A model generated the notes under the pieces. The model was given only the letters and a program-made list of their open reading frames with translations. It did not search any database and was not told where the DNA came from. A stretch of DNA of 64,000 bases from Massilia sp. Leaf139. Its GTDB lineage: Bacteria; Pseudomonadota; Gammaproteobacteria; Burkholderiales; Burkholderiaceae_D. The stretch lies in the NCBI RefSeq assembly GCF_001424165.1, contig NZ_LMOJ01000001.1, forward strand, positions 1,236,139 to 1,300,138, read 5' to 3'. Position numbers and translations under genes: made by a program. Below, piece after piece: positions 11,879 through 25,072 of this stretch. Within the stretch, counting starts at the first letter, position 1, and every line of letters starts with the position of its first letter.

Positions 11879-12661
11879 TTACCAGGAGCCGAGCCAGCTG
11901 GCGGCGGCGAAGGCGACGGCGTCGCGCCAGACGCTGCGCCGGGCGTCAAGGCCGGCATGGGCAATCTCGACGCGCCGGCTGCGCGGATGCTGCTCCTCGA
12001 AGCCGCGCGTGGCGTCCTGGCCGGGGGGCTGCGCGCCGCCGCAGACCAGCAGCACGCGCCCGCCGAAGCCGGCCTGCGCCTGCGCCTGCGCGGGTGTAAC
12101 CGACTGGCCCGGGACCGCGCCGCCGAGAACGCGGCTGGCGGCGCGGCGGAAAGCCGCGGCGCGGCGGAACAGGCGGTCGGCCGCCGAGCGCGGGCCATAG
12201 CGTAATCCCGGCTGCGGCGTCTCCGCTGCGCCACCTGTCGCCGCCGGGCGCGGCGCCAGCACCGGGTCGAGCAGGGCCAGGCCGGTAACGCGCGCGTCCT
12301 GCGCCGCATACAGGGCGGCGCTGGCGGCGGCGTCGCCGGCGCAGAGAATGACAGATTCTTTCATTTCGGGCACATGGATGAAAAATTCTTTCATCGCCGC
12401 GGCGATATCGTCGAGTCCCTGCAACGCGGCCTGGCCTTCGCTGTCGCCTGCGCCGAGGCGGTCGAAACGCATCACGGCAACGCCGCGCGCCGCGAGCAGG
12501 CGCGAGAGCAAGGTGAACTGGCGGTGGCTGCCGGCGCGGTACTGGCTGCTGTCGGCGAGGATCAGCATGCCGCGCGCCAGCGGCCGCTCGGGGACGTCGA
12601 CGATGCCGATCAGGGCCTCGCCGCGCACGTGAAAGCGCAGGGCGCGTTGTTCGAGCTTCAT
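11879..12661 (-). CDS. Exosortase A system-associated hydrolase 1
   Basis: A 260-residue alpha/beta hydrolase matching the small family found beside exosortase A loci: R-G-M-L-I-L-A-D-S-S-Q-Y-R-A-G-S-H-R-Q-F (the family usually reads V-G-G-P-Q-Y-R-x-G-S-H-R-Q-F), L-A-A-R-G-V-A-V-M-R-F-D-R-L-G-A-G-D-S-E-G, then a nucleophile region read as L-C-A-G-D-A-A-A-S-A-A-L. The usual elbow is altered there, so activity is doubtful. Start 12661 overlaps the stop of the upstream gene (ATGA). No exosortase gene is present in this window. Confidence 0.75.
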   Translation of the reverse strand: MKLEQRALRFHVRGEALIGIVDVPERPLARGMLILADSSQYRAGSHRQFTLLSRLLAARGVAVMRFDRLGAGDSEGQAALQGLDDIAAAMKEFFIHVPEMKESVILCAGDAAASAALYAAQDARVTGLALLDPVLAPRPAATGGAAETPQPGLRYGPRSAADRLFRRAAAFRRAASRVLGGAVPGQSVTPAQAQAQAGFGGRVLLVCGGAQPPGQDATRGFEEQHPRSRRVEIAHAGLDARRSVWRDAVAFAAASWLGSW

Positions 12662-13500
12662 GCCGGGTCTCCTGAAAACAGGTCGCTGGTGGCCGCGCGC
12701 AGGGCCGGCAGGTCGAGTTCGCCGTCGCCGCTCCAGAACGGCGAACCCTCGAGCGGGTGGAAGTGCAGGGTGGCGCCGTCCTTTTCCCAGCGTTCGCCCA
12801 AGCGTGCCGCGCTGGCCGCCGTCTTGGACGGCGTGGGGCCTGCATGGGCAAACCAATGCACGGCACAGGGTGGCAAGGCCACATGGGCGGCGTCGCAGGC
12901 GTCGATGGCTTTCACCAGCGGCACCGCCACTTCGAAGCCGCCGACCTCGATCGCGCCGTGCACCGCCAGCTGCGCCCTTAGCGCGGCCGTGCTGCGCGGC
13001 GCGCCGGGCGCCGGATCCTGCAGCTGCTCGGACAAGCGCAGGAACTGGTTGATGCAGGCGCGTCCGCTCATGAAGGGCTGCCAGAGCAGCACCCGTTGCG
13101 CCTCCAGGCGCGCGGCGGCGTCGAGCGCGAGCAGGCCACCCAGGCGCAGGCCCCACAGGGTCAGCGGGCCGCTGTCGCGGTCGGCCAGCCAGGCAGCGGC
13201 CAACGCCAGATCCTCTTTCCAGATCTGCCAGCGGCCGGCGCTGAATTCGCCGCAACTGTCGCCACAACCAAACAGGTCGATCTGCAGCACCGCGTAGCCG
13301 AGCTTGGCAAAAGCGCGCGACTGCAGCGCCGCCATGCGCCGGGTGCGGCTCAGTTCTCCGGCAAAGGGATGGACGTACAGGATCGCACCGCGCGGCGCGA
13401 CCTGCGGATTGGGGGCGTGGTAGAGGCTGAAACGCGTTCCAGGCTCGGCATCGAAGAAGAACGGCTCCACGCGCGGCGTGGTCAGCAGCGGAGCATTCAT
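12658..13500 (-). CDS. Exosortase A system-associated hydrolase 2
   Basis: A 280-residue alpha/beta hydrolase of the second exosortase-A-linked family: V-H-P-F-A-G-E-L-S-R-T-R-R-M, L-Q-I-D-L-F-G-C-G-D-S-C-G-E-F, and the elbow L-W-G-L-R-L-G-G-L-L-A-L. Arg in the nucleophile position of G-L-R-L-G is, as far as I recall, usual in this family. GGAGAC precedes the ATG at 13500, so the 26 in-frame residues upstream are excluded. First gene of a two-gene operon with hydrolase 1; divergent from the ligase-like gene at 13726. Confidence 0.8.
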   Translation of the reverse strand: MNAPLLTTPRVEPFFFDAEPGTRFSLYHAPNPQVAPRGAILYVHPFAGELSRTRRMAALQSRAFAKLGYAVLQIDLFGCGDSCGEFSAGRWQIWKEDLALAAAWLADRDSGPLTLWGLRLGGLLALDAAARLEAQRVLLWQPFMSGRACINQFLRLSEQLQDPAPGAPRSTAALRAQLAVHGAIEVGGFEVAVPLVKAIDACDAAHVALPPCAVHWFAHAGPTPSKTAASAARLGERWEKDGATLHFHPLEGSPFWSGDGELDLPALRAATSDLFSGDPA

Positions 13501-13584
13501 GGCCGGTTGTCTCCTGCACTCAAAGGCCCGGCGCGCAAGGGGCGCGTGTCGAAGCCGGTTTATCGGTGTAACGATCATGCATTT

Positions 13585-13599
13585 ATGTCAATTTGACAT
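13585..13599. promoter_or_regulatory. Palindrome ATGTCAATTTGACAT in divergent promoter region
   Basis: A perfect 7-1-7 palindrome in the 225-base gap between the hydrolase operon (-) and the ligase-like gene (+). It contains TTGACA on each strand, so it could serve as overlapping -35 boxes or as an operator. The rest of the gap (13600-13725) is AT-richer than its surroundings, with no other clear motif. Confidence 0.4.
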
Positions 13600-13725
13600 G
13601 TCCGCGTCAGGGTCGCCTTGCGCGGAGACAGCTGAACCCAAGCAATATCACTTGATAAGGGTCAATAACCGGTTTGCAGTTTTTCTCAATCATGGATTTT
13701 TATCCTGAGCAAGATTGGAGAAAAC

Positions 13726-15330
13726 ATGGCCCAGCCGGCACATGAACTGGTGGACGCGGCGGCACTCTGGTCGCCCACTGCAACCGCCGTGCGCCACGGC
13801 GCCGAGCGCATCAGTTATGCCGGGCTCGCCGGCGCGATCGCGGCCTTCGGCGGCGCGCTCAGCGCCCTCGGCATCGGAAGCGGCGAGCGTGTGGCCGTTC
13901 GCTTGCCGGCCTCGACGCCGGCGGTGGTGGCCCTGCTGGGCGCGTCGAGCGCCGGCTGCGCCTTCGTGCCCCTCGACCCCCAACTGGACGCGGCCGCCAG
14001 CGTGGCGCAGCTGCGCGACAGCGGCGCAAGGATGCAAGTCACCGATTCGGCCGGCGTCGACACGTTCGGCGCCAGTCTGGCCGACTGTGCGGCGCTGCGC
14101 GCGATCGTCGTGCACGGCGCCGGCGCCCGGCTCAGCACCAACGTCACACAACTCCCCTGGGACGCCTTCCTCGCCTCCGCAGCGTCTTCCAGCGCCGCCG
14201 CCCGCGCCGAGCCCACCCTCGGTGCGCTGGTATATGGCGCGGCGCCGGGCGAGGATGGCGCCCGGCGCGCACTCGCGCTGTCGCATCGCAATCTCGTGGC
14301 CGGGGCGGCATCGACGGCGCGCTGCCTCGGCATCCGGCCCGGCGACCGCATGCTGGCGGCGCTGCCGCTGCACAGCGACTACGGGATCAACGCCATGCTG
14401 GCGGCGCTCGCTTCGGGCGCGACCGTTGTCCTCGATAGCGCCGGCGCCGGCCTGGCGCCGTTCGAGACGCAGGCACTGGCGCGCCTGCTCGAACGCGGCG
14501 AGATCACGGCGCTGGCTGCTGCGCCAGCGACCTGGAACGCCCTGGCTGCGCACGACCTCGAACGCGCCGCCGATTGCCTGCGCTACGCGGCCTGCGCCGG
14601 CGGCGGCCTCGATCGCGATGCGCTGGCGGCCTTGCGCGCCGCGCTGCCGCGAACGCGCTTCCACCTGTTGTACGACATCGGCGACGCCTGCCGCTCGACC
14701 AGCCTGATGCCGGCCCAGCTGGACGAACGCCCGGGCTCGATCGGGCGCGCGACCCCGTATTCCGACTGGCTGGTCTTGCGCGCCGACGGCCGCGAATGCG
14801 CACCGGGCGAAAGCGGCGAGCTGGTGCGGCGCGGCGCCCTCGTCGCCCAGGGCTACTGGAACGATGCGCGCGCGAGCGGCGAACATTTCCGCTTTCTGGC
14901 GCCCGGCGCCGGGCTGGCGCGGCGCGAGATCGGCTACTGGCCGGGCCTCAGCGCGCGCAAGGATCTCGACGGCTACCTGTATCTGAGCGAGGGCCGCAAC
15001 GACACCATCACCAGCGGCGGCTATCGCATCAGCGGCCGCGAGGTCGAGAAGATCGTCGTCGGCACCGGTCTCGTGGCCGAGGCGGCCGCGGTCGGGGTCG
15101 CCCACCCGGTACTGGGCCAGGTGATCGCCGTGCTGGCCACCCCACGCCCCGGCGCCCGGCTCGACTCCTCGATCCTGTTCGGCGCCTGCCGCGCGCGCCT
15201 GCCGCAGCACATGCTGCCGGCGATGGTGGACGTGCGGCGCGCGCCCTTGCCGCGCGCGCGCGACGGCCAGATCGATCGCGCGCTGCTGGCCGGCGAACTG
15301 GCGCCCCTGTTCGCGGACGTGGCGCCATGA
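13726..15330 (+). CDS. Degenerate AMP-dependent acyl-CoA ligase-like protein
   Basis: A 534-residue member of the ANL superfamily, closest in layout to the exosortase-A-associated acyl-CoA ligases (L-S-H-R-N-L-V-A-G-A-A after the P-loop; G-G-Y-R-I-S-G-R-E-V-E-K-I in the C-domain). The P-loop that should read T-S-G-S-T-G-x-P-K-G is here V-Y-G-A-A-P-G-E-D-G. The aromatic Y-G-x-T-E motif is Y-D-I-G-D. The Y-x-T-G-D segment reads R-R-E-I-G-Y-W-P-G, and the catalytic Lys of G-K-I-D-R is replaced (G-Q-I-D-R). Adenylation activity is therefore unlikely. Open frame and codon use look intact, so it is probably an expressed pseudoenzyme. ATGA overlap with the next gene. Confidence 0.8.
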   Translation: MAQPAHELVDAAALWSPTATAVRHGAERISYAGLAGAIAAFGGALSALGIGSGERVAVRLPASTPAVVALLGASSAGCAFVPLDPQLDAAASVAQLRDSGARMQVTDSAGVDTFGASLADCAALRAIVVHGAGARLSTNVTQLPWDAFLASAASSSAAARAEPTLGALVYGAAPGEDGARRALALSHRNLVAGAASTARCLGIRPGDRMLAALPLHSDYGINAMLAALASGATVVLDSAGAGLAPFETQALARLLERGEITALAAAPATWNALAAHDLERAADCLRYAACAGGGLDRDALAALRAALPRTRFHLLYDIGDACRSTSLMPAQLDERPGSIGRATPYSDWLVLRADGRECAPGESGELVRRGALVAQGYWNDARASGEHFRFLAPGAGLARREIGYWPGLSARKDLDGYLYLSEGRNDTITSGGYRISGREVEKIVVGTGLVAEAAAVGVAHPVLGQVIAVLATPRPGARLDSSILFGACRARLPQHMLPAMVDVRRAPLPRARDGQIDRALLAGELAPLFADVAP

Positions 15331-17162
15331 ACGGCGCATCCGACGGTTTCTGCGGATGGTTTTCGCGCGAGCCGGCCGCTCTGCCGCTGGCCGACATGGC
15401 CGCGCCCTTCGCCGGCGGCCGCCCCCTGCGCAGCGCCGCCCACAGCCTGGGATGCGCCGCGCTCGCGGCCGGAGCCGGCGCGGCCTCGCTGTACCATCAC
15501 GATGGCCTGCTGATCGCCTGCTTCGGGATCGACGCCGAGGTACTGGCGCGCCTGTGGCGCACGCAAGGCGCGCGCGCCTGCGCGGCACTGTCCGGCCATT
15601 TCGCGTTCGCGCTGCTGGACGAGCGCCGCGCTGAGGCGCTGCTAGCCGTCGACCGCTGCGCCACGCGGCCCCTGTTCTATCAGATGGCCGGCCGCAGCCT
15701 GGTCTTCGCGACCAGTTCCGAAGCGCTGGCGCGCCATCCAGGCAGCGGGCGCGAACTCGATCCGCAGGCGTTGTTCGACTATCTCTACCTGCACGCGGTG
15801 CACGGCCCGCGCACCTTGTTCGCCGGCCAGCGCCGCCTGGCGCCGGGCGAATGCCTGCACCTGCATGGCGGGCGCGTCGAACGCATCCGCTACTGGCGCA
15901 TGCGCTATACCGAACACGCGCTCGACCCGGCTCCGCACACGGGGCTGCTGGACGCCCTGTCCTGTGCGCTCGATCCTGAACGCAGCCCGGCGCCGGCCGG
16001 GGTCATGCTGACCGGCGGCGCCGCCGGCTCGCTGCTGGCCACGCTGCTGCAGCGCGGCGCGGAGGTTCCGCTGCACACCTATGCGGTCGGTTACAAAGTC
16101 GGAAAGGGCAGCGGCGACTGTGAGCTGCTGGCCGACGCGCGCACGGCGGCGCGCCGGATCGGCAGCCGCCACCGCGAGCAGCTGCTGGGTGCCGAAGACG
16201 TTGCCGAGGCCGTCGCGCAGCTTGCGGCAAGCGCCGACGCGCCCTGCGGCGATCCGGCGGCGGTGGCGACCCTGTTCGCGGCGCGCATGGCAGGCGCGGA
16301 TGGGCTCGGCCGCCTCCATGGCGGCGTCGGCGCTGCCGGGCTGTTCGGCCTCAGCCGCGGCTATGCGGCCCTGGCCCGGCCGAACCGCTACGAGCGCCTG
16401 CCGGGCGCACTGCGCCAGCTGCTGATCGAACCGCTGCTGTTCGGGCCGGGCGCGCACCTGGCCATGTTCGCGCGCCTGCGTACGCGTATCGAGGAGTCGA
16501 TGGCGCCGCCGCTGGTACGGCTGCGGCGCCGCCATCCGCTGTTCGCGCACGGCATCGCCAACGTGTTCGAACCGGCATTCCTGGAGCTGGTCGACCCGGA
16601 TGCCCCGGGCAGCGTGCAGGAAGAGGGCTGGTGGCTGGCGCAGGCGCGCAGCGCCGTCAACCGTGCGGTCGACCTGGAACTGCAGGGCGACCTGCCGTGC
16701 CGGATCGCGCCGGCCTTCGCGGCCGCCTGTGCGGCGGCCGGGGTGGCGGCCGTGTTTCCGTATCTGGACGACGCCGTGGTCGCCATGTCGGCGCGCCTGA
16801 CGCCGCGCCAGAAGAGCGGCAGCGGGCCGCGGCGGCTGTTCGCGCGGGCGCTGCGCGAGGTCGGCGGGGCTGCGCCCGTACGCGCCGAGACGCCGTCCGG
16901 GCTACCTTTCGGCCGCTGGCTGTTGAACGATGCGCGCCTGCGCACGCTGGCCTGCGACAGCCTCTCGAGCCTGGCCCGGCGCCGCATCGTGCGCCGCGAA
17001 TTCATCGACCTCCTGCTCGCGCGGCGCCTGCCGCAGGAGCCGGGCGCGCACGGGCAAGCCATCTGGCGGCTGATGATGCTGGAACAGTGGCTGGTACGAG
17101 ACCGGCGCGGCGGCGCTGCGTTCCAGTCGCGCTCGGACGCCTGCGCGCTCGAACCCAGCTGA
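15327..17162 (+). CDS. Asparagine synthetase-like protein lacking key motifs
   Basis: A 611-residue protein with the two-domain plan of AsnB-type amidotransferases: N-terminal Ntn-like domain (F-C-G-W-F-S, then A-L-S-G-H-F-A-F-A-L-L-D, D-R-C-A-T-R-P-L-F-Y, R-R-L-A-P-G-E) and a synthetase domain ending F-P-Y-L-D-D-A-V-V-A-M-S. The glutaminase nucleophile should be Cys2; the first Cys here is residue 9. The pyrophosphate loop S-G-G-x-D-S is T-G-G-A-A-G-S. Both half-reactions look lost. It is translationally coupled to the ligase-like gene, which is degenerate in the same way, so the pair may have a joint non-catalytic role or be decaying together. Confidence 0.78.
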   Translation: MNGASDGFCGWFSREPAALPLADMAAPFAGGRPLRSAAHSLGCAALAAGAGAASLYHHDGLLIACFGIDAEVLARLWRTQGARACAALSGHFAFALLDERRAEALLAVDRCATRPLFYQMAGRSLVFATSSEALARHPGSGRELDPQALFDYLYLHAVHGPRTLFAGQRRLAPGECLHLHGGRVERIRYWRMRYTEHALDPAPHTGLLDALSCALDPERSPAPAGVMLTGGAAGSLLATLLQRGAEVPLHTYAVGYKVGKGSGDCELLADARTAARRIGSRHREQLLGAEDVAEAVAQLAASADAPCGDPAAVATLFAARMAGADGLGRLHGGVGAAGLFGLSRGYAALARPNRYERLPGALRQLLIEPLLFGPGAHLAMFARLRTRIEESMAPPLVRLRRRHPLFAHGIANVFEPAFLELVDPDAPGSVQEEGWWLAQARSAVNRAVDLELQGDLPCRIAPAFAAACAAAGVAAVFPYLDDAVVAMSARLTPRQKSGSGPRRLFARALREVGGAAPVRAETPSGLPFGRWLLNDARLRTLACDSLSSLARRRIVRREFIDLLLARRLPQEPGAHGQAIWRLMMLEQWLVRDRRGGAAFQSRSDACALEPS

Positions 17163-17207
17163 CAGGGCCAGGGCTGCGCGCGGACTCGTTCGATCCGCGC
17201 GCAGCCC

Positions 17208-18398
17208 TCAAGTCTCGGCGCCGGTCAGCGCGTCGTACACCGCCAGATAGCTGCGCGCCATGGCGGGCAGGCTGTGGTGGGCGATCACCTGGCCGCGCGC
17301 GCGGGCGCCGTGGCGCGCACCCATTTCGGGAATCCGGCAATAGTCGGCGATCGCGGCGGCCATCACGTCCGGCGACATGGGCGGCACCAGGATGCCGGTC
17401 AGCCCCGGTTGCACCAGCTCCTTGTGCACCCCGACCGAGGTCGCGACGACCGGCAGGCCGGTGGCCATCGCTTCCAGCAGCACGTTGCCGCTGGCCTCGG
17501 CCAGCGCCGGCAGCACCATCAGATCCATCGCCCGCATCAGCTGCGCGATGTCGACCCGCTCGCCCGGCAGCCAGGCGCGCTGGCCGGCGCCGGCCCGATC
17601 GAGCATGGCCTGGCACTCGGCGCGCATCGGCCCGTCGCCGACGATCAGGAGCCGCAGGCGGCTGTGCGCCGCATGGGGCGAGGAGATCAGTCGCAGGAAG
17701 GCTTCGATCAGGGTGGTGTCGTTCTTGGCGTCGTCCATGCGCCCGACGCTGCCGATCACGAAGGCGTCGTCGCGCATGAAGCCGTCCGGGCCGACCGCCG
17801 CGTGCGGCCCCAGGCGCGGGTGGAATTCCAGGCTGTCGACCCCGTTCGAGATGTGCGACACGCGTGAGGGTTCGGCGCCGATCCGTTCGATCAGCCAGCG
17901 TTCCTGCTCGGCGCTCACCGCGATGTAATGCTTGATGAGCGGACGCAGCATGCGCCGCAGCAGGCTGGGCGGCCGGGTGCGGCCGGACTCGGAGAATTCG
18001 CGGCCGTACTCGCCGTGCACGCGCAGGCGCACGCCGGCCAGGGCGGCGGCCAGCTGCCCCTCCAGGCCGCCGAAATTGCGCGTGTGGACAAGGTCGGGCC
18101 GCAGCGCGCGCAGGGCGCGCACCATACGTACGAAGTGGCGCGGGTCGGCGCCGTCGCGCTTGTGCAGGTCGATGACCTCCACGCCGTACTCGCGCAGATG
18201 CGCATGCAGGTCGGCGCGCAGCGCGCCGGCGCCCTGCAGGCACAGCACGGCGTGCCGGTAACGTTGGCCCGGCATGTGGGCGATCAGGTCGAGCAGGCCG
18301 TTGCCGGCGCCGCTGCAGTCGAGCCGGTTGACGACGTGGGCGACCAGGCGCGGCGGGGCGAAGGCCGGCGCCAGCGCGGCGACGGGTCGGTTACCCAT
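17208..18398 (-). CDS. Exosortase/PEP-CTERM system-type glycosyltransferase (GT4)
   Basis: Retaining GT-B glycosyltransferase of 396 residues, resembling the sugar transferases of exosortase-linked exopolysaccharide loci: H-V-V-N-R-L-D at the N-terminus, R-P-D-L-V-H-T-R-N-F-G-G-L-E, V-H-G-E-Y-G-R, Y-I-A-V-S-A-E-Q-E, I-S-N-G-V-D-S-L-E-F, then the GT1 domain with G-R-M-D-D-A-K-N-D and P-A-L-A-E-A-S-G-N-V-L-L-E-A-M-A-T-G-L-P-V-V-A (donor site, E-x7-E). The acceptor loop usually G-G-L-E-N-G-L is S-G-A-G-N-G-L. Convergent with the synthetase-like gene. Confidence 0.85.
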   Translation of the reverse strand: MGNRPVAALAPAFAPPRLVAHVVNRLDCSGAGNGLLDLIAHMPGQRYRHAVLCLQGAGALRADLHAHLREYGVEVIDLHKRDGADPRHFVRMVRALRALRPDLVHTRNFGGLEGQLAAALAGVRLRVHGEYGREFSESGRTRPPSLLRRMLRPLIKHYIAVSAEQERWLIERIGAEPSRVSHISNGVDSLEFHPRLGPHAAVGPDGFMRDDAFVIGSVGRMDDAKNDTTLIEAFLRLISSPHAAHSRLRLLIVGDGPMRAECQAMLDRAGAGQRAWLPGERVDIAQLMRAMDLMVLPALAEASGNVLLEAMATGLPVVATSVGVHKELVQPGLTGILVPPMSPDVMAAAIADYCRIPEMGARHGARARGQVIAHHSLPAMARSYLAVYDALTGAET

Positions 18399-18859
18399 GG
18401 CAGACCGCCGCCCGGCACAGGAAGAGCCGGTGCGTGCTCATGGCCGGGCGGCCGCGGCGGACGTCGCCGGGCGACGGGCCGATGCAAAGTGAAAATGCGA
18501 ACGGACGATGCGGCCGGGCCGGCCGGTGGCAGGGGCGAGCGACATGGGGATGGGTCTCCGGTGAAGGCCGCGAGGCTCACGCAACGAGGCTCACGCAATT
18601 ATATGGCTGCGGGCCGCGCCGACTCCGTAACCCTTTTCCCGGTTGATACCGGTCAAAGCGATCCGTGCACCTACGAAATGTCCTGCTTTACAGCGCTATC
18701 AGTCAAGTGATCGTGACAAATTTCTCCCAAGCTTGATCTATATCCAGATAGCAAAGATTCGCGCAAAACGCCGGGAACCCTGTTACTGATGACCTTGTCT
18801 GAATGGCAGTCACGACGTTTTCGCCAATGACGGCGGAACGCTTCTTCAGGGAGACCAGT
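18399..18859. other. Gene-free gap with a 14-bp tandem duplication
   Basis: 461 bases between the divergent glycosyltransferase and N-acyl amino acid synthase genes. The sequence CGAGGCTCACGCAA occurs twice in direct contact (18571-18584, 18585-18598). The last 200 bases are AT-richer and probably carry the promoter of the synthase operon. I see no convincing coding frame or RNA gene. Confidence 0.5.
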
Positions 18860-19612
18860 ATGTTGGTAGATGAAATGCCGATCGCATCGTTCCAGGGACC
18901 ACCGATCCTCTCGCCGCGCACGGCCGACGCCGCGGGTTCGGCCCAGGCGGCAGCGCGCGCCGAAAACCAGGTGTTCAATATCCGGGTGGCGCTGTCCGCC
19001 GGCTGCCATGCCGACAGTGGCGCCCTGGTACGGCGCATGTATGCCTGGCGCGGCTACGCTTTCGAAGTGGGCGGCGGCGGCTTCGACCGCGTCACCCTGT
19101 TCGCTGAAACGGGCGGCGAACTGGTGGGCACGATGAGCCTCTGCCTCGACCGCGGCCAGCTGCTGCCCGCCGACGAAAACTTCAGCGACCGGCTCGACAT
19201 GCTGCGCGCCGAGGGCCGGCGCTTGTGTGAACCCTCGCGCCTGGCGATCGACACGGGCATGTCCAAGCGCGTGTTCGCGGCGCTGATCCACATCTCCTAC
19301 CTCTACGCCGGCGACCTGCACGGCTTCACCGACTACGTCATCGAGGTCAATCCGCGCCATGTAGCCTTCTACAAGGGCATGCTCGGCTTCACCGACTTCG
19401 GCGGCGAGCGTCCCTGCAGCCGGGTCGGCGCGCCCGCCGTGCTGCTGCGCCTGCCGCTCGATCAGATGGGCGCGCAGATCCGCAAATGGAGCGGTAGCCA
19501 CGAGCAGCATCCCGGCGAGCGCTCCTTCTACCCGTACTTCTTCCCGCTCTGGGACGTGCCCAGCATCAGCGCGCGCCTGGCGGCCCTGTGTCAGGGAGGG
19601 GAACGCGCATGA
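18860..19612 (+). CDS. Long-chain N-acyl amino acid synthase (FeeM-type GNAT)
   Basis: Transfers a fatty acyl group from acyl carrier protein to an amino acid such as tyrosine. The 250-residue protein shows the FeeM pattern: M-Y-A-W-R-G-Y, E-L-V-G-T-M-S-L-C-L-D, L-P-A-D-E, L-R-A-E-G-R-R-L-C-E-P-S-R-L-A-I-D, S-K-R-V-F-A-A-L-I-H-I-S-Y-L-Y-A, F-T-D-Y-V-I-E-V-N-P-R-H-V-A-F-Y-K-G-M-L-G-F, and C-S-R-V-G-A-P-A-V-L-L-R-L. GGGAG stands six bases before the ATG at 18860. It is coupled (ATGA) to a flavoprotein gene. Such synthases are known to be linked to exosortase loci, in keeping with the neighbours on the left. Confidence 0.88.
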   Translation: MLVDEMPIASFQGPPILSPRTADAAGSAQAAARAENQVFNIRVALSAGCHADSGALVRRMYAWRGYAFEVGGGGFDRVTLFAETGGELVGTMSLCLDRGQLLPADENFSDRLDMLRAEGRRLCEPSRLAIDTGMSKRVFAALIHISYLYAGDLHGFTDYVIEVNPRHVAFYKGMLGFTDFGGERPCSRVGAPAVLLRLPLDQMGAQIRKWSGSHEQHPGERSFYPYFFPLWDVPSISARLAALCQGGERA

Positions 19613-21279
19613 GCCAGCTCAACGACCTGCCGCAGGCAGCCGGCGTCGCCCTGACGCTGGAAGCCGCCCTTGGCGAAATGGCGGCCGTTGTCGGCGCCGC
19701 CCATGTCCTGGCGGACGCAGCCACGCGCGAACGCTACGCGCGCAGCACGGCGTCGCGTGCGGTGCGCCCGCTGGCGCTGGTGCGGCCGGCCGATGCGGGC
19801 GAAGTGGCGCGCGTGGTGGCGATCGCCGGCCGGGCGCGCCTGGCCGTGTACCCGATCAGCACCGGCAAGAACTGGGGGTATGGTGATGCCTGCGCCGTCG
19901 GCGCCGGGCAGGTGATCCTCGACCTGTCGCGCATGAACCGGATCATCCACGTCGACCCCGAACTGGCCTATGCCGTCATCGAACCGGGCGTGACCCAGCG
20001 CCAGCTGTCGGACTACCTGCGCGCGCAGCGCCTGCCTTTGTGGGCCGACTGCACCGGTGCCGGGCCGGATACCAGCTATATCGGCAACATCATGGAGCGC
20101 GGCTTCGGCCATTCCCCCTACGGCAACCGCCTGCAGCACGTGGCCGGCATGCAGGTCGTGCTGGCCAGCGGCGAGCTGCTCGAGACCGGCTTCGGCCACT
20201 ACCGCCAGGCGCGCGCGGCGCATCTGTTCCCCTACGGCGTCGGGCCCTTCCTGGACGGCCTGTTCACCCAGTCGAACATGGGGATCGTCACCCGACTCGG
20301 CATCTGGCTGATGCCGCAAGCCGAGTGCGTGAACCATTTCCTGTGCAGCGTGCCCCGGCACGCTGACATCGCACCGGTGGTCGACGCCCTGCGGCCGCTG
20401 CGCCTGGACGGCACCCTGCGCAGCATCCTCCACATCGGGAACGACATGCGGGTGTTTTCGGGCGCCGGCGCCTTTCCGCGCGAGGCCGCGCCGCAGGGCG
20501 CCTGCCTGCCCGAGGCCCTGCGTGCACGGATGCGCGCCCAGGCCGGCATCGGCGCCTGGACGGTGTCGGGCGCCCTCTACGGCTCGCATGCCCAGGTCGC
20601 GGCTGCGCGCACAGCGCTGCGCAAAGCCTTGCGCGGCACCGCGGGCCGGCCGGCTTTTGTGAGCCAGCGCAGCCTGCGCGCCGGCGCCCTGGCGGCCCGC
20701 CTGCTCGGCGAAACCGGCCCCGGACGCCGCCTGCGCGCCAAGGTCGCGCTGGGCGAGTCGCTGTTCGCGATGAACCGCGGCGTGCCCGACGGCCGCTTCC
20801 TGGCGGGCGCCTACTGGCGCCGCCGCGGCGGTGTGCCGGCCAGTTTCCCTGCGAACGCCAATCCGGCCCAGGACAACTGCGGCCTGCTGTGGGTATCGCC
20901 CGTGCTGCCCCTGCGCGGCGCCGACATGCTGGCCGTGTACGACCTGGCGCAGTCGAGCTTCGACCAATATGGCTTCGACCTGTTCGCCACCTTCAGCATG
21001 ATCAACGAACGCGCCGTGGGCGGCGTGCTGAGGGTCGTCTACGACAAGGACGACCCGAACGAGGCGGCGCGCGCCCGTGCCTGCCACGACGAAGTCTTCG
21101 ACAATATGTTCGAGGCCGGCTACATTCCCTACCGCGTCGGCAACCACGCAATGGGACGGCTCGATCCGCAGGGCGACAGCTACTGGCGCACGGTCGGCGC
21201 GATCAAGGCCGCGCTCGACCCGGCCGGCACCCTGGCGCCGGGGCGCTACCAGCCCGGCGTCGCGGCCGTCTTCATGTGA
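19609..21279 (+). CDS. VAO/PCMH-type FAD-binding oxidoreductase
   Basis: A 556-residue flavoprotein of the vanillyl-alcohol oxidase/4-cresol dehydrogenase type. FAD-domain signs: P-L-A-L-V-R-P-A-D-A-G-E-V, Y-P-I-S-T-G-K-N-W-G-Y-G (83-92), V-I-L-D-L-S-R-M-N-R-I, V-I-E-P-G-V-T, S-Y-I-G-N-I-M-E-R-G-F-G-H, and F-T-Q-S-N-M-G-I-V-T-R-L-G-I-W-L-M. The C-terminal half carries F-D-L-F-A-T-F-S-M-I and P-Y-R-V-G. Because it starts inside the stop of the N-acyl amino acid synthase gene, the most economical substrate is the N-acyl amino acid (for example oxidation of an N-acyltyrosine); that is inference. Confidence 0.82.
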   Translation: MSQLNDLPQAAGVALTLEAALGEMAAVVGAAHVLADAATRERYARSTASRAVRPLALVRPADAGEVARVVAIAGRARLAVYPISTGKNWGYGDACAVGAGQVILDLSRMNRIIHVDPELAYAVIEPGVTQRQLSDYLRAQRLPLWADCTGAGPDTSYIGNIMERGFGHSPYGNRLQHVAGMQVVLASGELLETGFGHYRQARAAHLFPYGVGPFLDGLFTQSNMGIVTRLGIWLMPQAECVNHFLCSVPRHADIAPVVDALRPLRLDGTLRSILHIGNDMRVFSGAGAFPREAAPQGACLPEALRARMRAQAGIGAWTVSGALYGSHAQVAAARTALRKALRGTAGRPAFVSQRSLRAGALAARLLGETGPGRRLRAKVALGESLFAMNRGVPDGRFLAGAYWRRRGGVPASFPANANPAQDNCGLLWVSPVLPLRGADMLAVYDLAQSSFDQYGFDLFATFSMINERAVGGVLRVVYDKDDPNEAARARACHDEVFDNMFEAGYIPYRVGNHAMGRLDPQGDSYWRTVGAIKAALDPAGTLAPGRYQPGVAAVFM

Positions 21280-22543: not shown

Positions 22544-25072
22544 ATGACCGCCTTGCCTCCCAACCCAGGAGTATTCGCCCCGGACACCGGGATCTACACT
22601 GGCAGCAGCGCGTCCGATCCGATCCACGAGACGCTCGTGATCGGTGCGGGCTTCGGCGGCATCTGCATGGGCGTGGCGCTGCGCCGCGCCGGCGTCGACA
22701 ACTTCCTGATCCTGGAAAAGAGCGCCGACGTCGGCGGCGTCTGGCGCGACAACACCTATCCCGGCGCGGCCTGCGACGTGCCTTCGCACCTGTATTCGTT
22801 TTCCTTTGCGCCGAACCCGGACTGGTCGCACACTTTCGCGCGCCAGGCCGAGATCCACGCCTACCTGCACGATTGCGTGCGCCGCTTCGGGCTCGCACCA
22901 TACATCCGCACGCGCACCGCGGTCGAGGGGGCGAGCTTCGACGAGGCGCGCGCCCTGTGGGTCGTGCGCCTGGCCAATGGCGAGCGCCTGCTGGCGCGTC
23001 TGCTGGTGAGCGCCGCCGGCCTGCAGGGACGGCCGATCCTGCCGCGGATTCCCGGAACCGAGAGTTTCCGCGGCCAGGCCTTCCATTCGGCGCACTGGGA
23101 TCACGGCTGCGCGCTGGCCGGCAAGCGCGTCGGCGTGATCGGCACCGGCGCCTCGAGCACCCAGTTCATTCCCGAGATCGCGCCCGAAGCAGCGCAGCTA
23201 AGCGTGTTCCAGCGCTCGCCGTCCTATTTGAAAGCCCGCGGCGGCCGCGCCTATCCGCGCTGGCAACAGACCTTGTTCCGCCGTCTGCCGCCGCTGATGC
23301 GTCTGCACCGCGGCCTCATCTACGCGAAATACGAGGCGCGCGCGCTGGCGTTTACCCGCATGAAAAGCATGATGTGGCTGGCCGTCGGCAAACCCTTCAA
23401 GGCGATGCTGGCGCGCGAAATTCCCGACACGCAGCTGCGCGCGAAACTCACGCCCGATTATCCGATCGGCTGCAAGCGCATCCTGCTGAGCGACGACTAC
23501 CTGTCCGTGTTCTCGCGGCCGAACGTCGCGCTCGTGACCGAACCGATCGTCCGCGTCACGCCCGACGGCGTCGAGACCGGCGATGGCCGCCATCATCCGC
23601 TCGACGTGCTCATCTACGGCACCGGCTTCGCCGCCACGGACTTCCTGGCGCCGATGGCGATCCGCGGACGGGCGGGGCGCTCCCTGAACGACGCCTGGCA
23701 GGATGGCGCCAGCGCCTATCTTGGCATGACGGTACCCGGCTTCCCGAATTTCTTCATGCTCTACGGCCCGAACACGAACCTCGGCCACAATTCCATCGTC
23801 TACATGCTGGAGAGCCAGGTGGCGCACGTCATGCGCTGCCGCGCCGCGCTGCGTGCGGCCGGCGCCGCGTCGGTCGAGGTCGAGGGACAAGCGCACACTG
23901 CGTTCGACGGCCGCATCCAGGAACGCCTGGCCACGACGGTCTGGCAGGGCTGCCGCAGCTGGTACCACGACCGCAAGGGCCGCAACAGCGTCAACTGGCC
24001 GGGCTTCACCTTCAGCTACCGTTTTCTCACGCGCCATGCGAGCCTGCTGGCTTACCGTTTTACGTCGCCGATCCCCGGCCAGCCGGGCGGTGTCGAAGTG
24101 GCGGCGCCGCGCGCGTGGCCGGAACGGCTGGCCGCCGCCTTCCAGCGCGCTTTTCTGCGCACTTGCTTCAAACCCCTCATTGGGCCGCCGTTCGGCGCGG
24201 TCACCCAGCGCCGCTTCGTCGCGCTGCTGTCGCCGCTGATGCCCGGTGTGCGCGGACTGACTTTCGAGCAGCTGCGGGTGGGCGCGCTGCCGGTTGAAAT
24301 CGTGACGCCGCCGCGCGCCGGGGAGGGCGCCTTACTCTACCTGCATGGCGGCGCCTTCTGCCTGGGCAGTCCGCGCACCCACCGCAGCATCACCACGCGC
24401 CTGGCGCGCGGCGCCGGCGTACCGGTCTGGGTGCCGGACTACCGCCTCGCGCCCGAGCATCCGTACCCCGCCGCACTCGACGATGCCCTGGCCTGCTACG
24501 ACGCCATGCTGGCTGCCGGCATTCCGGCCGATCGCATCGTGCTGGCCGGCGACTCCGCGGGCGCCAGCCTGGCGCTGGCAAGCGCGCTGCGGCTGCGCGA
24601 GCGTCGCGCAGGCTCCTACACCGCGCCGGCCGCGCTGGCGCTGGTGTCCCCGGTCACCCGCATGCAGCATGCCGACGCCGGCAGCACGCCCGACCCGATG
24701 GTGCGCAGCAGCTGGGTGAGGCAGGGCGCGGCCTGGTATGCCTGCCCGGCGGACGCCTGCGTCCACGATCCGCTGCACTGCGACCTGGGTGGCCTGCCGC
24801 CGATGCTGCTGCAGGTCGGCGACCAGGAAGTGCTGCTGCCCGATTCGCTGCGTCTCGCGGAACATGCGGCTGCCTGCAACTTGCCGTGCAGGCTCGAGAT
24901 CCACCGCGCGCGCTGGCACGTGTTCCACCTGCAGGCCTTTTATCTGCGCTCGGCGGCGAACGCCATCGGCGCGCTGGCGCATTTCGCGCGCGAACGCATC
25001 GCGGCGGCCGGCGCGCCCGGCACAGCGGCGGAGCGGGCCGCGCTCGCGACGGACGGCGCGCCGCCGCCATAA
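22544..25072 (+). CDS. Fusion: flavin-binding monooxygenase + HSL-family esterase
   Basis: One 842-residue frame with two enzymes. Residues 1 to about 500 form a flavin monooxygenase of Baeyer-Villiger type: FAD site G34-A-G-F-G-G39, N-T-Y-P-G-A-A-C-D-V-P-S-H-L-Y, the fingerprint F175-x-G-x-x-x-H-x-x-x-W-D186, NADPH site G-V-I-G-T-G-A-S-S (197-205). Residues from about 560 are an alpha/beta hydrolase of the hormone-sensitive-lipase family: H601-G-G-A-F, P-D-Y-R-L-A-P-E-H-P-Y-P-A-A, nucleophile G-D-S671-A-G, D-P in the acid strand and H in R-W-H-V-F. A ketone could be oxidised to an ester and then hydrolysed by the same chain. Substrate not known. Confidence 0.9.
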   Translation: MTALPPNPGVFAPDTGIYTGSSASDPIHETLVIGAGFGGICMGVALRRAGVDNFLILEKSADVGGVWRDNTYPGAACDVPSHLYSFSFAPNPDWSHTFARQAEIHAYLHDCVRRFGLAPYIRTRTAVEGASFDEARALWVVRLANGERLLARLLVSAAGLQGRPILPRIPGTESFRGQAFHSAHWDHGCALAGKRVGVIGTGASSTQFIPEIAPEAAQLSVFQRSPSYLKARGGRAYPRWQQTLFRRLPPLMRLHRGLIYAKYEARALAFTRMKSMMWLAVGKPFKAMLAREIPDTQLRAKLTPDYPIGCKRILLSDDYLSVFSRPNVALVTEPIVRVTPDGVETGDGRHHPLDVLIYGTGFAATDFLAPMAIRGRAGRSLNDAWQDGASAYLGMTVPGFPNFFMLYGPNTNLGHNSIVYMLESQVAHVMRCRAALRAAGAASVEVEGQAHTAFDGRIQERLATTVWQGCRSWYHDRKGRNSVNWPGFTFSYRFLTRHASLLAYRFTSPIPGQPGGVEVAAPRAWPERLAAAFQRAFLRTCFKPLIGPPFGAVTQRRFVALLSPLMPGVRGLTFEQLRVGALPVEIVTPPRAGEGALLYLHGGAFCLGSPRTHRSITTRLARGAGVPVWVPDYRLAPEHPYPAALDDALACYDAMLAAGIPADRIVLAGDSAGASLALASALRLRERRAGSYTAPAALALVSPVTRMQHADAGSTPDPMVRSSWVRQGAAWYACPADACVHDPLHCDLGGLPPMLLQVGDQEVLLPDSLRLAEHAAACNLPCRLEIHRARWHVFHLQAFYLRSAANAIGALAHFARERIAAAGAPGTAAERAALATDGAPPP

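Follow-up and report, generated by a model that had tools for sequence, protein, structure and literature searches.

The locus raises the question of why a FeeM-type N-acyl amino acid synthase should be encoded in overlap with a flavoprotein of the vanillyl alcohol oxidase/p-cresol methylhydroxylase (VAO/PCMH) type, and what the two enzymes would make together. In the window (the whole stretch of 64,000 nucleotides of Massilia sp. Leaf139 DNA that was analysed) the pair comprises the following features.

18860..19612, + strand, FeeM-type N-acyl amino acid synthase, 250 aa (PF21926, match to PDB 2g0b, FeeM)
19609..21279, + strand, VAO/PCMH-type FAD oxidoreductase, 556 aa (PF01565, PDB relatives, AF2 model)
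19609..19612, + strand, ATGA stop/start overlap of the two genes (sequence)

The reading that we favour, and hold to be rather probable, is a dedicated two-step pathway, in which the synthase would acylate tyrosine and the flavoprotein would oxidise the product to an oxidised phenolic lipid.

The synthase frame begins with the ATG at 18860, preceded by AGGGAG, and ends with the stop at 19612; further in-frame ATGs are found at 18803 and 18827. The flavoprotein frame runs from the ATG at 19609, with AGGGAGGGG upstream, to 21279, and the ATGA overlap described in the initial annotation is seen where the two frames meet. The third-position GC is 0.86 for the synthase and 0.90 for the flavoprotein. 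In the relatives L010-L038, FeeM was placed by script 5' of the flavoprotein in 27 of 29 cases, and the nearest flavoprotein start falls in a range from ~25 nt ahead of the end of the FeeM stop to 22 nt beyond it. The pair has no adjoining acyl carrier protein gene, as had been noted earlier; all four PF00550 matches of the genome are outside the window, and the one at C25:47749 has exosortase-A-type hydrolases next to it.

The first enzyme matches PF21926 with 163.5 bits (E 4.4e-48, Pfam cut-off 27) and FeeM (PDB 2g0b) with an E value of 9.1e-12. Its E124 is aligned with the catalytic glutamate of FeeM and Nas354, given as Glu95 and Glu103, respectively, in the available text of PMC4897644 (by our own count E124 faces position 96 of the FeeM chain, the numbering of the paper being one lower). 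This column holds Glu in 26 of the 27 aligned synthases and a gap in the 27th (alignment A3, a chosen subset of the synthases found, without L099). With the family match above its cut-off and the catalytic Glu kept, the assignment as an N-acyl amino acid synthase made in the initial annotation stands. In these two respects the enzyme resembles the FeeM/NasY synthases, and it differs from them in being coupled to a VAO-type flavoprotein. The acceptor is probably tyrosine, a specificity predicted from the partner enzyme. In the FeeM tree L107, L108, and L111 lie on very long branches, so their placement is unsure.

The flavoprotein matches FAD_binding_4 (PF01565) with 95 bits (E 4.1e-27, Pfam cut-off 26.4), while the C-terminal domain PF02913 is not listed for it in the Pfam scan. 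Its PDB relatives include PCMH and VAO, with E values down to about 1e-82, and it shares ~30% identity with lignin-phenol enzymes. The AF2 model (pLDDT 89.9) superposes on nsVAO (9ffk) with a VIA Z of 44.3 and 1.9 Å over 497 residues, covering model residues 15-551; a near whole-chain likeness (Z about 40-44) is common to VAO, eugenol oxidase, PCMH, and nsVAO, in agreement with the earlier description of a VAO-type flavoprotein. Residues Y91, Y508, and R509, aligned with PCMH residues, are unchanged in all 43 flavoproteins of the A4 alignment, catabolic controls included (A4 is a chosen subset of those found, without L040). We take their VAO equivalents, Y108, Y503, and R504, to be the phenolate-binding Tyr, Tyr, and Arg, a set that the window flavoprotein has in common with VAO, eugenol oxidase, PCMH, and nsVAO. 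From this invariance a para-hydroxyphenyl lipid, most simply an N-acyl-tyrosine, is the likely substrate as far as can be judged from sequence. The site is kept also in the two catabolic-type rows of A4 (L050 and L051), and is thus a mark of phenol chemistry, not of acyl-tyrosine as such.

Covalent attachment of FAD in the VAO/PCMH family occurs through His in oxidases and Tyr in dehydrogenases, and is not universal. The position of VAD His387, a known FAD-linking His, is aligned with L426 of the flavoprotein, which argues against a histidyl FAD link, and A401 is aligned with the FAD-linking Tyr position of PCMH. Non-covalent FAD is described for nsVAO in the available text of PMC7617285. Neither the signature of oxidases nor that of dehydrogenases is a clean fit for G150-A151, the pair at the flavin N5 site, and the electron acceptor is therefore not predicted.

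Among the 294 family genomes, a close flavoprotein is found in 39; FeeM lies directly 5' of it in 37, the remaining two being contig ends. Within the genus the pair is scattered, as 7 of the 27 genomes sampled have the flavoprotein. Ten of the 39 genomes contain a second, distant flavoprotein (31-37% identity), also by a FeeM and convergent with it, at 152-174 bases in nine cases and at 1.3 kb in one. Seven further family genomes have only the distant flavoprotein. In G151 FeeM is directly upstream of it, in G197 and G218 a FeeM-type ORF is located about 1 kb 5', and in G226 a convergent one about 2 kb away; no FeeM is present in the fetched flank in G053 and G143, and G076 was left out of the fetched flanks. 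A contig scan by two motifs, D[CS]TGAGPDT and ERGFGHSP, yielded 74 loci, which for this reason form a motif-selected set. FeeM is upstream of the flavoprotein in 45 of these, and in 66 an acyltransferase-type gene is either fused to that of the flavoprotein or lies no more than 300 bases from it (as measured by script). Of the eight others, two start at a contig end; in four (L086, L102, L103, and L104) the fetched flank is free of acyltransferase genes, and in two (L105 and L080) the nearest lies 1.5 and 4.4 kb away, respectively. L017, L026, and L032 are absent from A1, since a stop interrupts the match in two of them and a contig end truncates the third. The genome and locus tallies rule out a chance overlap of two genes: the pairing is conserved far beyond chance, and the co-occurrence that the initial annotation had put forward as a check is borne out.

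Both enzymes are fused in one protein at four of the 74 loci, one of which is a duplicate (L109 and L110, from different bins, are 100% identical), leaving three distinct paralogues, 66-70% identical, with FeeM and FAD_binding_4 in one ORF; a planctomycete protein is among the fused forms. The acyltransferase partner varies, with the flavoprotein kept. At six of the 74 loci FeeM's place beside related flavoproteins is taken by the PEP-CTERM/exosortase-system acyltransferase TIGR03694, in tandem in L100, L114, and L127 and convergent in L106, L118, and L121. All seven TIGR03694 members scanned (L105 included) score above the family cut-off, and the family is separate from FeeM, with its own weak FeeM matches; a literature search on the family turned up one paper with a mention of its accession. 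At ten loci of the Vibrio type the flavoprotein adjoins an unclassified 191-aa protein, which matches no Pfam family in the five members scanned and no NCBIfam family in three. Its model (pLDDT 70.8) has GNAT proteins as fold matches, with Z values of 12.8 for TofI, 12.7 for FeeM (2g0b), and 12.0 for LasI, among others, but the first row is BCCIP beta (12.9). Membership of the FeeM family is not claimed, as FeeM is tied with other GNAT proteins and only 40th in the Foldseek ranking, and profile comparison with FeeM gave no relation (probability 0.24%). The Vibrio partner is predicted to have a GNAT fold, and on that fold would be an acyltransferase.

Could the flavoprotein be no more than a catabolic phenol oxidase encoded by chance behind a synthase? 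Family membership and the ~30% identity to lignin-phenol enzymes are all that speak for it. Nine loci, labelled catabolic by ourselves, served as controls: seven plasmid loci (drawn from the 36 plasmid records that gave a match), L050, and L051. An aldehyde dehydrogenase-type or cytochrome c gene lies near five of the seven plasmid controls and L051 (cytochrome c is annotated in L135, L136, L139, and L140), and neither is nearby in L050, L137, and L141. None of the nine matches any of the three acyltransferase profiles. The window flavoprotein, in contrast to the VAO/PCMH phenol oxidases, stands in an acyltransferase context and not a catabolic one, and the CXXCH motif of a cytochrome c partner, as in p-cresol methylhydroxylase proper, is absent from 15 window proteins at and around the pair. 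Compared with L050 and L051, the window flavoprotein carries motifs of the TGAGPDTS and ERGFGHSP types, and its chain is longer between the WR and GLLW stretches. In a flavoprotein tree of 50, eight of the nine control rows group separately from the window's side, at only moderate support (81/89), together with the three FeeM-convergent rows L044-L046, while L141 falls on the window's side, likewise with moderate support. With the fusions and the pairing tally largely refuting it, the catabolic explanation is rejected as the main reading and keeps next to no probability.

In the favoured pathway, the synthase would take a long-chain acyl group off a carrier protein whose gene lies elsewhere and pass it to the amino group of tyrosine. 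The phenolate would then be held by Y91, Y508, and R509, and a hydride would pass from the benzylic carbon to FAD, giving a para-quinone methide, which may relax to N-acyl-2,3-dehydrotyrosine (an enamide) or capture water to give N-acyl-beta-hydroxytyrosine. The earlier idea of an oxidation or desaturation of the N-acyl amino acid by the flavoprotein is consistent with this scheme. The available text of PMC12479983 attributes the known 2,3-dehydrotyrosine lipids to a route with a nitroreductase. In the Tyz/Oxz/Trz, kyonggic, thalassotalic, and stieleriacine clusters the flavoenzymes belong to the nitroreductase superfamily and lie beside a ThiF-like protein, and a ThiF-flavoenzyme fusion, TrzS, is described in the accessible parts of PMC12856293 and PMC10404671. 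The scanned neighbours of the pair include no such ThiF-like protein or nitroreductase-type oxidase; a set of this type is found beside a second FeeM on contig C25 of the same genome. The pair is also carried by Pseudoduganella (Massilia) umbonata CECT 7753 (L081), which we take to be the strain LP01 of PMC12479983. Massilia umbonata LP01 makes only saturated kyonggic acids according to the available text (PMC12479983).

Both observations bear on the product. The saturated products reported for an organism with the pair disfavour a simple desaturation, and the nitroreductase set on C25 disfavours the enamide, as far as the accessible literature goes. They lend weight to a benzylic hydroxylase, with the same pair and substrate, in which the quinone methide would be hydrated to N-acyl-beta-hydroxytyrosine, or to a ketone after further oxidation; PCMH and VAO are among the closest solved relatives, too. 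VAO-type enzymes, however, also dehydrogenate longer alkyl phenols, and no beta-hydroxy product is named in the available text of the literature found, so that we regard hydroxylation as possible, if doubtful, and lean towards the enamide. A different phenol as substrate of the flavoprotein (free tyrosine, tyramine, or a hydroxyphenyl group of the exopolysaccharide), with the synthase using the oxidised product or a different amino acid, would agree with partners that vary by lineage and with a site that indicates a phenol but not which one; we consider it improbable, as the fusion to FeeM and the close adjacency suggest a direct hand-over. Removal or inactivation of an N-acyl-tyrosine signal, instead of completion of its synthesis, would explain the co-occurrence equally and would fit the convergent arrangements, but the overlap and fusion with the synthase would then make a futile cycle, which renders it very improbable.

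The following genes lie upstream of the pair.

11879..13500, - strand, two exosortase-A-type hydrolases (hydr2, 242.3 against a cut-off of 202.75; hydr1-like, 122.5 against 168.45)
13726..15330, + strand, acyl-CoA ligase, exosortase-A-associated ligase paralogue (TIGR03098, 421.7 bits, below the cut-off of 592.35)
15327..17162, + strand, asparagine-synthase-like amidotransferase (a relative of TIGR03108, the XrtA amidotransferase; its 132.5 bits fall far short of the cut-off of 816.9)
17208..18398, - strand, PEP-CTERM/XrtA-type glycosyltransferase (TIGR03088, 399.2 bits, cut-off 409.05)

A subset of FeeM-type synthases is tied to PEP-CTERM/exosortase systems (available text of PMC4897644, citing Craig et al. 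2011). In contrast to such systems, the XrtA-like genes of the window are mostly paralogues under the family cut-offs (ligase, glycosyltransferase, and hydr1), with hydr2 above its own; XrtA itself exceeds its cut-off at C25:68049, outside the window. As XrtA-type genes occur in the flanks of 48 of the 74 motif-selected loci, the lipid is probably part of a cell-surface XrtA/PEP-CTERM exopolysaccharide programme, often encoded beside the pair.

With a phenol-oxidising partner that is conserved, and in some cases fused, the choice of substrate would narrow to a hydroxyphenyl lipid. We put at about even the chance that the flavoproteins form a previously undescribed class of N-acyl-tyrosine oxidases, of the VAO/PCMH and not the nitroreductase fold, which is paired throughout with acyltransferases of at least three types (FeeM, TIGR03694, and the Vibrio family), both in Pseudomonadota and in bins placed in Planctomycetota and Elusimicrobiota. 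If so, a second, unrelated flavoenzyme fold would operate in acyl-tyrosine oxidation. A function is thereby proposed for the TIGR03694 acyltransferases and the unclassified Vibrio proteins, which by association would likewise be synthases of the N-acyl-tyrosine type; what the exosortase-linked acyltransferases make would then be an oxidised phenolic lipid with a tie to the cell surface.

The pair consists of two overlapping genes:

18860-19612, + strand: FeeM-type N-acyl amino acid synthase, 250 aa (PF21926, E 4.4e-48; FeeM, PDB 2g0b, E 9.1e-12)
19609-21279, + strand: flavoprotein of the vanillyl-alcohol oxidase/p-cresol methylhydroxylase (VAO/PCMH) type, 556 aa (PF01565)

The synthase stop and the flavoprotein start overlap in an ATGA, and a purine-rich ribosome-binding stretch precedes the start of each gene. 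The nearest solved relatives of the flavoprotein are the Novosphingobium vanillyl alcohol oxidase, p-cresol methylhydroxylase and eugenol oxidase. The coordinates and families given to both genes in the initial annotation are correct, and its claim that no acyl carrier protein gene lies beside the pair agrees with a Pfam search of the genome.

The model of the window flavoprotein (pLDDT 89.9) superposes on VAO/PCMH enzymes almost end to end (Z 44.3, 1.9 Å, 497 residues). In these enzymes the phenolate is held by two tyrosines and an arginine, and the counterparts in the window protein, Y91, Y508 and R509, are invariant in 43 of 43 aligned sequences. Since these include both control rows of the alignment, the invariance marks a phenol, not which phenol. 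The FeeM-type synthase family is reportedly known for acyl-tyrosine (Brady et al. 2004), which, together with the phenol-site residues, points to N-acyl-tyrosine as the putative substrate of the flavoprotein. In the VAO/PCMH family FAD accepts a hydride from a benzylic carbon, and the resulting quinone methide then loses a proton, forming a double bond, or adds water. In the window enzyme the hydride would come from the benzylic carbon of N-acyl-tyrosine, and the quinone methide would go on in one of these two ways. The FAD-linking His of the oxidases is replaced by L426, and the putative position of the FAD-linking Tyr of p-cresol methylhydroxylase aligns with A401. The Novosphingobium enzyme binds FAD non-covalently (PMC7617285). 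The flavin N5 pair (G150-A151) matches neither signature described in that paper, and so no electron acceptor is predicted. E124 of the synthase falls in the same alignment column as the Glu reported as needed in Nas354 (PMC4897644); this column holds Glu in 26 of the 27 aligned synthases, with one gap.

Co-occurrence of the two genes across genomes, proposed as a check in the initial annotation, was found in the family sample. At a threshold of 1e-60 the flavoprotein is matched in 46 of the 294 genomes, 39 of which have a close copy, defined as one match of at least 687 bits (37 genomes) or a match split in two (G223, G113; the pieces are at G223:C11 and G113:C202). In 37 of the 39 a FeeM gene on the same strand immediately precedes the flavoprotein, and in the remaining two (G108, and G091 with a contig of 3310 bases) the flavoprotein is at most 33 bases from a contig end. 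In ten close-copy genomes there is a second flavoprotein, a distant one at 31-37% identity; each is convergent with a FeeM, at 152-174 bases in nine genomes and at 1.3 kb in one. FeeM is commoner than the flavoprotein (184/294 genomes at E 0.001; 146/294 above cut-off), and the flavoprotein thus depends on FeeM more than FeeM on the flavoprotein. The pair is patchy: within the window's genus the flavoprotein occurs in 7 of the 27 genomes sampled, counting the window's own.

Two flavoprotein motifs, with FeeM not used for selection, picked out 74 loci in public genomes. FeeM is directly upstream of the flavoprotein in 45, in a single open reading frame with it in four, and convergent at 27 bases in one. 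The exosortase-associated acyltransferase TIGR03694 is directly upstream in three and convergent and adjacent in three; a protein of 191-203 aa follows directly downstream in ten. The acyltransferase is more distant in two (TIGR03694 at 1.5 kb in L105, FeeM at 4.4 kb in L080), and no acyltransferase neighbour was found in six. Two of these six (L078, L095) begin at a contig end and are the same contigs as the family's two exceptions, while L086, L102, L103 and L104 have no contig end at their start. At 48 of the 74 loci the flanks contain genes of the exosortase-A (XrtA) type. The domains of the distinct fusions, by Pfam, are:

L107, 822 aa: FeeM 65-220, FAD domain 325-464
L108, 820 aa: FeeM 73-228, FAD domain 320-459
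L110, 812 aa: FeeM 68-221, FAD domain 315-454

They are three paralogues (66-70% identical) from a single planctomycete bin; the fourth fusion, L109, is a 100% match to L110 from a different bin.

L105 encodes a 482-aa FeeM-type protein (12206-13651) in which PF21926 covers 106-265 and a long extension follows at the C-terminus. By eye this extension is PilZ-like, as in the two-domain Nas343 and Nas354 (PMC4897644); Pfam gave no PilZ match. An O-methyltransferase (PF00891) stands next to the flavoprotein at L086:9894-10940 and has a relative in the L080 flank, possibly a further tailoring step.

The 191-203-aa family (L122-L126, L128-L130, L132, L134) occurs in Vibrio, Photobacterium and Zooshikella, its gene lying directly behind that of the VAO-type flavoprotein. 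No Pfam family was found in the five members scanned, no NCBIfam family in three, and profile comparison with FeeM gave no match. The predicted structure (pLDDT 70.8) resembles GNAT acyltransferases, with a C-terminal helix. The acyl-homoserine-lactone synthase TofI (Z 12.8, 3.2 Å, 156 residues) and FeeM (Z 12.7, 3.7 Å, 163 residues) are among its top rows, level with others including BCCIP beta (Z 12.9). From this model the protein is read as a putative GNAT-fold acyltransferase rather than as an established relative of FeeM.

In the nine control loci with catabolic-type homologues (two from family genomes, and seven from plasmids, the latter at ~27-34% identity), the three acyltransferase profiles have no match within flanks of ~4 kb. 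Cytochrome c (L135, L136, L139, L140) or aldehyde dehydrogenase (L135, L138, L139) is annotated near the flavoprotein in five of the seven plasmid controls, and control L051 has an aldehyde-dehydrogenase-type gene. The tree of 50 flavoproteins places the window among 39 rows, of which 35 are acyltransferase-linked, three show no acyltransferase and one is a control (L141). On the opposite side are the eight remaining controls, together with three FeeM-convergent rows; support for the split is moderate (81/89). Among 33 synthases placed in a tree, that of the window clusters with other VAO-tandem synthases, and the two ThiF-linked ones stand apart from it.

Upstream of the pair are relatives of XrtA exopolysaccharide-type genes (acyl-CoA ligase, amidotransferase, glycosyltransferase, two hydrolases), of which hydrolase 2 alone is above its family cut-off. 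This satellite set (11879-18398), without exosortase or acyl carrier protein, is partly paralogous to a set on another contig, C25. A single reading frame at 22544-25072 combines a flavin monooxygenase-like (BVMO-type) half with an alpha/beta-hydrolase (hormone-sensitive-lipase-like) half. On C25, XrtA (C25:68049), hydrolases 1 and 2 and a ligase are each above cut-off, and an acyl carrier protein is found by Pfam. A second FeeM is also encoded on C25. With it stand a PrsT TPR protein (829 bits against a cut-off of 312.2), a ThiF-like protein and an FMN oxidoreductase of the nitroreductase type with kinship to the Rv3131 and Rv1355c families. The genome thus harbours an acyl-tyrosine cluster of the kind already published and, in the window, a further synthase with a different flavoenzyme.

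One observation counts against a 2,3 double bond as the product of the pair. The genome of Pseudoduganella umbonata (formerly Massilia umbonata) CECT 7753, presumably the same strain as LP01, has the pair (L081). For LP01, however, only saturated kyonggic acids are described in PMC12479983, where the 2,3 double bond is ascribed to a TyzC-like nitroreductase. This leaves three readings: the pair is silent under the culture conditions used, its product escaped notice, or the flavoprotein makes no 2,3 double bond. The main text of PMC12479983 contains no words starting with oxidase, FAD or dehydrogenase, nor vanillyl alcohol oxidase or p-cresol methylhydroxylase.

A synthase with a product-oxidising flavoenzyme is already a known kind, represented by Tyz, Oxz and Trz. 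The searches, which covered openly licensed papers, gave no case of a VAO/PCMH fold as product oxidiser, of such an enzyme fused to FeeM, or of one shared by three acyltransferase types.
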